A DNA stretch of 64,000 nucleotides, taken from positions 248,001 to 312,000 of the forward strand of contig JAKOGH010000747.1 of assembly GCA_024811115.1 (NCBI GenBank). The letters run 5' to 3'. Of the stretch, positions 56,945 to 59,713 are shown piece by piece; position 1 is the stretch's first letter; each line of letters begins with the position of its first letter. The notes beneath the pieces are model-generated. The model was given only the letters and a program-made list of their open reading frames with translations, was not told the DNA's origin and did no database searches. The translations under genes and the position numbers were made by a program. The DNA comes from Terana coerulea (taxonomy: Eukaryota > Basidiomycota > Agaricomycetes > Polyporales > Phanerochaetaceae).

Positions 56945-59713
56945 ATGCGAACCAAACTGTACCAGCAAGCGCCCACACCCCCAGGTTGTGGCATTGCCTA
57001 TGTACCCGATGCCGGTACCCAGCAGGTGTTCTTGCCCCTGGAGAAGGCGGAAGTACATGCAGACGTGGTCGATGGTAAGTGACTCGTGGCTCTTTTTCTG
57101 CGTCGGCGTCTCATACGTGTCCTTAGTGTCTGCCATTGTCACCGTGACGCAACAATTCTGGCAGTACTCTCCATCCGGCCTGTCCAAGGCTCGATATGTC
57201 TTCCCCGTTCCTGCACGAGCCGCTGTATGCGGCTTTGAGATGGTGGCTGCGGATGGCACAGTCATCGTTGCGGCTGCGAAGGAAAAAGACGAGGCACGTC
57301 GCGAGCATGAAACTGCGATTGCGCAAGGACAAATGACCGGTCTCGTTGAGCATGTCACGGACGATGGTGAGCTATGTTTCATTGCTCTGATAATCATGGT
57401 CTCATAGAGCAACTACGCAGTTTTTCTCTATATCGTTGGGCGCGCTTCCTGCCCAACAAATGATTACGACCAAAGTCACTGTAGGTCGCTGATTGTCCCC
57501 ACTGCATCAGTATTGATCCTTCTATAGTATGTTCTCGACCTAATGGATGATGATGTTTCGGACCAAGTCAGGCTACAGATACCGGTATACATCGGGATGC
57601 GGTACGGCCAGACACCCGAAGGAATGGCGGGTGCAAACATAGTCCCCCCGGACCGTGTGGCTGTGGACGTGGACGTCCGCATGAAAGGAAATGTAAAGAG
57701 CATCACCAGCCCCACTCATCCCACATGGACTTCACAACCGGACGGCTCTGAGCAAGTCTTGCCAGCCTCTCGTACGGCCGCCAAGTACCGTTCTGCCACG
57801 TTCCTCACGCAAGACTTCGTTCTGTCCATCGTTGCCGAAGACCTTGATGCGCCGCGGTGCTTTGCCCAACGAGGTACTAACGGCTCCACGGCTATTCAGC
57901 TGAGCATCGTACCGAAGTTCAAGCTTCCACCAGTCGCAGAGCAAGAATATATATTCCTAGTGGACCGTAGCGGCAGTATGGGGATGGTGGATGACAGAAT
58001 CGGCACAGCCAAACAGGCTCTTGTGATGCTGCTCCGCTCCCTCCCCAGCCAAAGGACGACATTCAACATCTTCAGCTTTGGGTTCAAATGCGACTCCTTG
58101 TGGGAGGAGAGCATGGCCTATGATGAGAACTCTCTTGATGAAGCGGTGTGTTCATGTGTGAATTATGCGGAGTTGGCTTGCTCACAAGTTGACCAGACAA
58201 GGCATATTGACTCTATGTCGGCCGACTATGGCGGCACGGAAATACAGAATGCTCTGAAGACTACGTTCCGCTCGTGCAGCACGCACAGGTCTACCGCGTG
58301 TTTTGTTCTTACCGACGGCGAGGTGCGTCTTTCCTTCATTGAACCGCACGAAGATTCGCTGACATGCATTACCCTGTCCAGAGCTACAATATCAACTCCA
58401 CAGTCGACGCTGTGACAAATGCCGTAGCCCAATCCAAGCCCGGCGCCTCCCTCCGAGTCTTCGTCCTCGGAATCGGCGAGACGACGTCCACTGCCATGTG
58501 TGAAAGCATTGCCAGAGCCGGGAATGGTATTTGTCTCATGGCTACTACCGCCGAGAGCATTGTCGGCAAGTGCTCCAGGCTTGTCCGCGCCAGCCGAACC
58601 TACGTCCTCAGCAACGTCACCGTTGACTGGGGCGTCAGCACCGATCTCCAGGAGGCGCACCGTACTGGGGAGACCGACGTCAAGAGTGTGCGTCAGGCAC
58701 CCTCGCACATTCCTGTCATGTTTCCCGGAAGTCGTTTTGTCGCTTTCGCCCTGGTCGAGGACGAGAAATTCACGTCGCCGAAGGAGGTCGTTATCTGCGC
58801 ACAACGTGATGGTCAAGGCGAGATGCTTCGTTTCACCGTCCCAGTCGAGGAGGTGGAATCGTCTCCAGACCATCCCAAACCGCAGCTCATCCATATCTTG
58901 GCTGCTCGCCGGGCGATCATGGACCTCGAGGACCAGTGCAAGACGGACGTTTCGCCGGACACCAAGGCGCTCATTATTCGCCTCGGTACCCGGTACCAAC
59001 TCGCCAGCCGTTTCACATCGTTCATCGCCGTGGACAAACGCATCAAAAGGAGGCTCACGTCGCAGGTCAACAGCCACTTCTCAGGTTTCTTGATGTCGAG
59101 GCGGAGGTGGATGACTCTGACGACGACATGGGCTTTTACTGGTCGACGATGTGTCGAGCGCACCTCCCCCTCGGTCGTCCCCCAGAAGCGCAGTGGAAGA
59201 GGCCTCGGCAAAGGCGGCGCCATGCGCCACCGGCGCATCGCCGTCCCCGCCCGGAAGAGCACCGGCGGAAAGGCTCCTCGGAAACAGCTGGCTACGCAGG
59301 CTGCTCGCAAGACCGCTGTGGCTGCAGATCCGTCTTCGCATTCCAACGAATCCGAGGACGAAGATCCCAGCGTAGACGAAGTGTCCGAGGAAGAGGAAGA
59401 AGTTACGCCTCCTCCACCCGACGAGGAGCCGGTAGTTCGCTTGATTCGCCTCCAGTCTTTTGATGGCTCCTTCTCAGCGCAGCCCCAGTTGGAAGACATT
59501 GTTGGAGCTGGCACATTGGCCGAGGCTCAGAAGCTCAACGTCCCTGACACTATCTGGGCCACCGTGCTAGCGATAGCGTACTTGCGGAAGCACATGACGG
59601 ACCAACCCGAGTTGTTGGAGGATCTGGTGGAGAAAGCAATGGATTTTATCTCCTTGACTCCCGACGTTGATGTCAATGCGCTGCTGAGCAGGGCTCAAGC
59701 TATCATAACTTAG
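56945..59713 (+). CDS. VIT/VWA domain protein E with histone H4/H3 tail-like linker
   Basis: 834 residues. Exons: 56945-57074, 57127-57366, 57421-57480, 57528-58145, 58197-58322, 58382-59713. VIT domain about residues 10-165 (QQFWQYSPSGLSKARYVFPV), VWA about 281-470 with metal-site motif DRSGSMGMVDD, the Thr of YGGTEIQ and the Asp of VLTDGE. A basic linker follows. Residues 662-677 copy the H4 tail and 681-703 the H3 tail, then comes an acidic run (SNESEDEDPSVDEVSEEEEE). The C-terminal domain is typical (LIRLQSFDGSFSAQPQLEDI ... LAIAYLRKHMTDQPELLEDL). Exon 6 is open throughout. Exon 3 has 60 nt where A, B, C and D have 59: the T run 57421-57425 has one base too many and would stop translation early if real. 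Intron 58146-58196 is 51 nt without a stop. It is tail-to-tail with 2OGD3. Confidence 0.87.
59192..59317 (+). other. histone H4- and H3-tail-like segment inside VWA-E
   Basis: In the VWA-E frame, 59192-59239 encodes SGRGLGKGGAMRHRRI. This is the H4 start with five residues (KGGKG) removed and K16 and K20 changed to M and R. After AVP, 59249-59317 encodes [16 protein letters not shown] followed by Q and AARKTA, equal to H3 residues 7-29 except K23 to Q and S28 to T. The H3 sites K9, S10, K14, K18 and K27 are kept. No histone fold follows. Confidence 0.9.

Follow-up and report, generated by a model that had tools for sequence, protein, structure and literature searches.

The window, by which is meant the whole stretch of 64,000 nucleotides of Terana coerulea DNA analysed here, contains VIT/VWA genes that include those labelled B, C, D and E. 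Gene E, or VWA-E, occupies positions 56945..59713 of the forward strand, and its exons (56945-57074, 57127-57366, 57421-about 57481, 57528-58145, 58189-58322 and 58382-59713, all on the + strand) were drawn by eye from GT-AG sites and paralogs, with family matches as support. In Pfam it has two domains expected of VIT/VWA proteins of the VWA5A/Vwa1-like kind: a VIT domain (PF08487) at 57126..57365 (+, E=9.8e-20) and a VWA domain, of which the first part (PF13768) lies at 57951..58322 (+, E=5.6e-12, read through a likely intron) and the remainder is matched weakly at 58403-58531 (+, E=0.017). The gene ends in the C-terminal domain of the family (LIRLQSFDGSF...WATVLAIAYL...; 59432..59713, +), which is conserved among the aligned fungal proteins and whose sole PDB match is a weak one to the C-terminus of a VWFA protein (E=0.32). 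VWA-E belongs to a fungal VIT/VWA family in which a long loop joins the C-terminal domain to the VIT/VWA body.

It is in this loop that copies of two histone tails are found. The H4 tail copy, SGRGLGKGGAMRHRRI, lies at 59192..59239 (+, z 13), the copy of H3 residues 7-29 at 59249..59317 (+, z 15), and an acidic stretch at 59345..59404 (+), which agrees with the preliminary description of H4 and H3 tails in tandem (window 59192-59317) followed by acidic sequence inside a VIT/VWA protein. Both tails fall in the same frame (position modulo 3 = 2) of an ORF at 58343-59713 that runs for 456 codons without a stop, and they are in frame with the VWA body on one side and the C-terminal domain on the other. 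The substitutions K16M and K20R in H4 and K23Q in H3, as well as the absence of five H4 residues, are just as described, and the reported lack of a histone fold was borne out by Pfam, which placed no histone family in the VWA-E ORF at E<=1. The earlier figure of 37 matches in 39 positions is slightly high, as 14 of 16 positions match for H4 and 21 of 23 for H3 against the canonical tail, or 22 of 23 if T28, a residue also present in the fungus's own H3, is counted. When compared with the fungus's own tails, taken from the H3 and H4 exons of L002-L004, the loop scored 88 for H3 (z 15.0) and 70 for H4 (z 13.2), and none of 2000 shuffles reached either value. Among the 1391 six-frame segments of at least 30 amino acids in the window, the tail copies ranked first, with runners-up at 46 (H3) and 39 (H4). 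The own H3 exon itself reads KQLASKARKTAPV in haplotigs L002 and L003, one residue short of the usual KAARK.

The last exon had been described as uninterrupted, which holds for the stop-free ORF of the tails and is doubtful just upstream of them, where 59083-59136 matches the fungus's own proteins in another frame (position modulo 3 = 1). Read in that frame, the segment codes for RFLDVEAEVDDSDDDMGF (RFLDVEAEVD-D-SDDDMGF), that is, an Spt5 N-terminus-like peptide, RFLDVEAEVD (59083..59112, +, 10/10 residues, z 11), and a ribosomal P-stalk tail-like peptide, SDDDMGF (59116..59136, +, 7/7 residues, z 7.7); the own Spt5 gene reads RFLDVEAEVDEDEEE, and the own P-stalk genes end in DDDMGFGLFD. Because the peptides match the own Spt5 and P-stalk tail there, the segment was probably once read in that frame, and the VWA-E loop probably once carried an Spt5-like, a P-stalk-like, an H4-like and an H3-like peptide in that order. 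An intron that would bring the Spt5/P-stalk block into frame was considered and rejected, as no GT-AG pair of fitting length was seen by eye and a scripted splice search of VWA-E gave no stop-free model. Compared with the paralogs, exon 3 is longer by a single T. Within this assembly, haplotigs L002 and L003 differ by 8 indels in 3076 bases, 6 of them within homopolymer runs (counted by hand), and L022 and L023 by 2 indels in 3204 bases. The frame break may reflect either a sequencing error, for which the extra T and these haplotig differences would speak, or recent decay, the two looking alike here.

Capture of tail-coding DNA had been offered as one origin of the copies, and the codons speak against a recent event of this kind. 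In the H3 copy 16 of 18 compared residues are identical to those of the own H3, and 11 of these 16 codons differ; in the H4 copy 11 of 13 are identical, with 9 of the 11 codons differing. The Spt5-like copy (10/10 residues) differs from the own gene at 7 of 10 codons, and the P-stalk-like copy (7/7 residues) at 2 of 7. Since most codons for shared residues differ, recent capture of histone DNA is not supported. A recent DNA copy would share codons and unconstrained drift would lose amino acids, so the tails of VWA-E appear either to be under selection as peptides or to descend from an old copy whose source used other codons; an old capture of tail-coding DNA could have given rise to them. What stands of the original reading is mimicry at the level of sequence, which recurs in independently sequenced fungi, with the qualification that histone tails are only one choice among a wider set of self-peptides.

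This wider set is already evident in the neighbouring genes, all read on the reverse strand. The loop of gene D contains, within 4386..4514, a Ras switch I-like YDPTIED (4494-4514, -), the top match of the 1391 segments, and a Ras switch II-like QEEYAS (4386-4403, -); the switch II probe gave nothing of note when run against the same 1391 segments. SR repeats precede these Ras-like pieces in another frame, the frame of the gene D loop being broken in the assembly. The loop of gene C contains an adenylyl-cyclase G-alpha-binding-like peptide, EPWMAPESWEAG (39849..39884, -), again the top match of the 1391 segments. In gene B the loop and C-terminal part lie at 35565..36347 (-), the loop being acidic and, by eye, FG-like. 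Gene B also has an in-frame TAG at window 37652-37654 (-), in the VWA region, where gene C has TGG. The best segments in the window for H3, H4 and the P-stalk are thus all in VWA-E, that for Ras switch I is in gene D and that for the cyclase in gene C, and the two best Spt5 segments are in genes B and E, although the one in gene B consists of an acidic run whose composition may account for the match. This ranking is a check on specificity and was not blind, as several matches had already been spotted by eye when the probes were applied; FG and SR repeats are of low complexity and were left out of the peptide counts.

Relatives were gathered by three protein searches, one of which yielded the best 120 of 382 matches, the lower part consisting of histone proteins that match by the tail alone, and another, with a query lacking the loop, the best 120 of 678. 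The sample comprised 181 listed proteins (P0001-P0062, P0070, P0122 and P0129-P0245). A loop of at least 25 residues follows the VWA body in 152 of them and not in the other 29; the loops span 27-331 residues (median 151), and some end at the end of the protein. The 152 loops were compared with probes taken from the fungus's own sequences in a shuffle test with a threshold of z>5. Matches were found in 14 loops for H3, 3 for H4, 13 for the P-stalk, 11 for Spt5, 4 for Ras switch I, 2 for switch II, 3 for the R-SNARE, 13 for the Brr2 N-terminus and 5 for the adenylyl-cyclase peptide. Among 760 shuffled controls there was one match each for Spt5, switch I and the R-SNARE, and none for H3, H4, the P-stalk or switch II. 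Reversed H3, Ras, SNARE, Brr2 and cyclase probes matched no loop, but reversed probes for the P-stalk (6 loops, best 41), H4 (3, best 42) and Spt5 (2, best 61) did, which argues that composition explains the weak matches to acidic or basic peptides; the P-stalk and Spt5 counts are, on this evidence, partly compositional. In a further control, which covered the probes other than Brr2 and cyclase, 300 non-loop pieces gave 2 matches for H3 (39 and 41), 1 for H4, 2 for Spt5 and 0 for the others, and the third H4 match (P0217, 43) and last H3 match (P0023, 44) are near the level of the controls. Trust was therefore placed in the 10 P-stalk loops that score at least 43, of which P0022 lacks the MGF core, and in the 6 Spt5 loops with an [FY]LD core, P0021 being on the Spt5 list by motif rather than by z.

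A hand-picked union of loops, including those with GATA, homeobox, HMG and CTD sequences, comes to 49 of 152. It leaves out as weak the P-stalk matches of P0022, P0030, P0208 and P0230, the Spt5 matches of P0217, P0175, P0002, P0030, P0216 and P0185, and the switch II match of P0036; P0217, P0175 and P0002 enter by other peptides, and P0208 and P0216 by Brr2. The search for the same insert in relatives recovered H3-type loops in proteins of nine named fungi, namely Rhizophagus irregularis, an Auriculariales species, Hymenopellis radicata, Favolaschia claudopus and five Mycena species. Of 15 H3 copies, 14 retain K14, all 15 R17 and 14 K18, and 3 retain K23 and 4 K9, with the caveat that, in the copies that diverge most, the positions from K9 downwards vary with how they are aligned. 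In the 4 H4 copies K20 is always R, and K16 is M in 2. Such lysine changes may represent decay.

Individual members illustrate how the peptides are combined. In P0168 (Mycena rebaudengoi) an H3-like stretch, which matches histone H3 in the PDB (E=6.5e-7, residues 697-725), is followed by FLDLEVEVEEDEDEDEE, and Pfam gives a weak Spt5_N match (0.015, below cut-off). P0175 (M. filopes) has both H3 and H4 tails, and a PDB search of its loop returned nothing at E<=1e-4. The H4 tail of P0051 (PDB H4, 0.0018) shares K16M and K20R with that of the window and is followed by a P-stalk tail; the loop of P0044, in a query joined with P0051, matched P1 in the PDB at 0.027. Spt5-like and P-stalk-like peptides are accompanied in P0038 by RNA polymerase II CTD repeats, which match RPB1 at a summed E=7e-41, the best single stretch reaching about 2e-7 in sequence of low complexity. 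Pfam identifies an R-SNARE piece (Synaptobrevin) in P0211 (7.7e-9) and P0227 (3.6e-9), and P0211 also matches Synaptobrevin homolog 1 (1.4e-5). In both loops a second coil follows the R-SNARE piece (in P0211, ELDQQNQRIQRLDSMADSLDSKI), and we take it to resemble a SNAP-25-type motif. DNA-binding domains are present as well: homeobox and GATA domains in P0238, GATA in P0231 and, below cut-off, in P0195, and an HMG piece in P0204 and P0056, the HMG box of P0213 lying after the C-terminal domain. PDB searches of the Ras-like loop of P0222 and the loop of P0241 gave nothing at E<=1, and Pfam found only one weak stray match (E=0.23) in nine loop pieces, the Ras-like ones included; given these results, it is the shuffle test that supports the Ras, Brr2 and cyclase copies. 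An internal H3 tail was also noticed in an unrelated family of 745-1023 residues (P0123, P0125 from Apodospora peruviana, and P0126), for which Pfam gave no family above cut-off and whose DDFWFW stretch is presumably reverse-transcriptase-like.

Some peptides recur among loops and could be traced to their sources. A composite of the recurrent YNYSAISSLVLTADRS had one match in the fungus's own genome, an ORF identified as Brr2 (PDB, human Brr2, E=4.5e-39), and this tracing was blind. The blind peptide search with the PESW loop motif had no match in the own genome. We took this motif for the G-alpha-binding domain of adenylyl cyclase; that family has two weak matches in the own genome, one of which (E=0.025, just under cut-off) reads DPSWTAPESWVVD at a locus that also carries RA, LRR, PP2C and cyclase domains and is the fungus's own adenylyl cyclase. 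A TRSKRGE motif is repeated in the loops of P0153, P0159, P0174, P0195 and P0243, and its source was not found in the own-genome search. A RAAQIEAKRAKLGQMR-like motif is repeated in P0186, P0236, P0237, P0241 and P0242; we suspected the N-terminus of the dynein intermediate chain, but neither the family search nor the peptide search of the fungus's genome yielded such a source, in a setting in which the controls of the family search were silent too.

Closely related members carry different peptides. P0021 (H3, Spt5) and P0020 (P-stalk) are sisters with a support of 100, and are 82% identical before the loop and 65% after it but 32% within, where shuffled loops give 23% (maximum 32%). P0168 and P0156, the latter of the Brr2 and P-stalk type, are likewise 78% identical before the loop, 71% after and 34% within (shuffled 21%). 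More generally, 1285 of 2500 sampled pairs are at least 60% alike before the loop, and these have median identities of 0.66 before it, 0.28 inside it (0.26 for shuffled loops) and, with n=761, 0.54 beyond it. On a quick tree of 142 rows, from which P0061 and P0199 are absent and in which gain and loss are not separable, the 13 H3-type rows need 10 changes, which speaks against a single inherited H3 lineage. Shuffling the labels 200 times gave a mean of 12.5 changes and a minimum of 11, and since 10 falls below all of these, part of the pattern is plain inheritance. The H3-type rows are thus, as far as the tree indicates, scattered with some inheritance (for example in P0058/P0055, P0175/P0217 and P0050/P0223).

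The intracellular VIT/vWFA proteins of the VWA5A/Dictyostelium Vwa1 clade also have VIT, VWA, a long loop and a C-terminal domain in this order (PMC10539598), the last of these possibly being shared with the fungal family. A model of Vwa1 has the CTD on a long disordered loop and docked on the vWFA domain, from which autoinhibition was suggested; Vwa1 also co-purifies with an F-box protein and CulE, which are parts of an SCF ligase, and the cellular functions of the VIT/vWFA family are called poorly understood (PMC10539598). The word 'histone' is absent from the main text of that paper, and its account of the Vwa1 loop mentions no copied host peptides. Judged from domain order, the fungal peptides would sit between the parts that correspond to the vWFA domain and CTD of Vwa1. 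The VIT/VWA body is also like that of PARP4 (vault PARP) and ITIH proteins, with relative P0168 matching PARP4 at E=5e-37 and ITIH4 at E=1.3e-16, but no PARP catalytic family is among the Pfam matches of VWA-E or the scanned relatives. Plant NLR receptors with integrated decoys belong to a multi-gene family and incorporate a variable copy of a host module that is targeted. The VIT/VWA family is likewise diversified with copies of host peptides, which would be targets by analogy; however, there is no NB-ARC/NACHT or LRR among the Pfam matches of the scanned VIT/VWA proteins, and their loops combine many short peptides in place of a single domain. In influenza NS1, G9a and other histone mimics, a non-histone protein contains a short copy of a histone tail, whereas the fungal loops hold about 28 H3 residues in some members, H4 is copied too in the window, and non-histone peptides occupy the same place.

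That many members of the family carry in their loops close copies of short peptides from their own hub proteins is well supported by the sequence comparisons. As to what the copies do, one tentative possibility, with rather less than an even chance, is that the loop is disordered and acts as a bait. If a foreign or rogue protein set out to recognise, cut or modify one of the hub peptides, be it from a histone tail, the ribosomal stalk, a Ras switch, a SNARE or the splicing helicase, it would engage the copy in the loop in place of the original. This engagement would disturb how the C-terminal domain docks against the VWA domain; either the protein would then be switched on or the attacker would be brought to a ubiquitin ligase, in the manner of the integrated decoys of plant NLR receptors but on an unrelated scaffold. 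A broader form, which is possible though somewhat more doubtful, is that these proteins are fungal sensors of immunity or quality control, in which a tethered loop would show an exchangeable library of hub peptides and interference would free the C-terminal domain and trigger a response; with the same reserve, the library displayed would comprise histone tails, Spt5, the ribosomal stalk, the RNA polymerase II CTD, Brr2, the Ras switch, adenylyl cyclase, SNAREs and DNA-binding domains. The bait reading gains from the loop matches to own probes with near-empty shuffles, from the H3, Ras, SNARE, Brr2 and cyclase probes that match no loop when reversed, from the tracing of two loop motifs to own genes, from the best window segments falling in VIT/VWA genes, from residues kept despite codon change and from the docked model and SCF association of Vwa1. 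It is weakened by the lysine changes, the matches of some reversed probes, the partial clustering of H3-type rows on the tree, the frames broken just upstream of the tails and in the gene D loop, by the origin of the homeobox, SNARE and Ras pieces in folded proteins, which may escape recognition when out of their fold, and by the failure of blind searches for three motifs (PESW, TRSKRGE and the RAAQIEAKRAKLGQMR-like one).

The same loop matches would be expected if no intruder were involved and the peptides were endogenous adaptors or competitors that dock VIT/VWA proteins on the normal partners of the hubs. Such partners, among them acetyltransferases, elongation factors, G proteins and SNAREs, would be regulated or brought to an SCF ubiquitin ligase. 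The part of H3 read by GCN5-type enzymes is the K14/R17/K18 region, and its retention in the copies, with H3K9 and H4K20 mostly replaced, suits docking of this kind, as does the association of Dictyostelium Vwa1 with an F-box protein and CulE (PMC10539598). A hub set that spans chromatin to SNAREs fits it poorly, and a fixed regulatory partner would hardly lead one to expect that sister genes differ in their peptides; it is because of this difference between sisters that bait is favoured, and docking, including its proposed partners, ranks as conceivable but rather doubtful. Neutral debris, in the form of gene fragments caught in a permissive loop or of a pseudogene, is improbable: the frame breaks in genes E and D, the in-frame TAG in B and loops that are hardly more alike than shuffled ones in pairs similar before the loop would all be in keeping with it, but VWA-E has kept its residues while 11/16, 9/11 and 7/10 of the shared codons changed, and the same peptides are present in many genomes. 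Slightly more improbable is a role as targeting signals, by which histone tails would direct nuclear import and other peptides would be other addresses. The tail copies are basic, and Kap123/importin-4-type importins recognise the tails of H3 and H4; against this, the copies of the P-stalk, the Ras switch and SNAREs do not correspond to known import signals, and an import signal has no need of near-exact copying. A chimeric assembly join or contamination could be imagined from the haplotig length differences in this assembly, yet it is very unlikely indeed, as the tails lie within one ORF, flanked on either side by family sequence, the contig is 472,618 bases long, and H3-type loops occur in the nine fungi named above.

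Searches of the open-licence PMC literature turned up no account of VIT/VWA proteins that contain histone tails or other host peptides, and a VIT/VWA loop with a mixed set of own hub peptides appears not to have been described there; integrated decoys and histone mimics are, by contrast, known ideas. If the loop peptides are baits, the family would amount to a readable list of the host peptides attacked by fungal intruders, and fungi would have a way of sensing by decoy that is built on an unrelated scaffold. Should they serve for docking instead, a single scaffold would be connected with chromatin, transcription, splicing, translation, Ras, cAMP and vesicle fusion. On either reading, a testable role would be in hand for a widespread family of VIT/VWA proteins.
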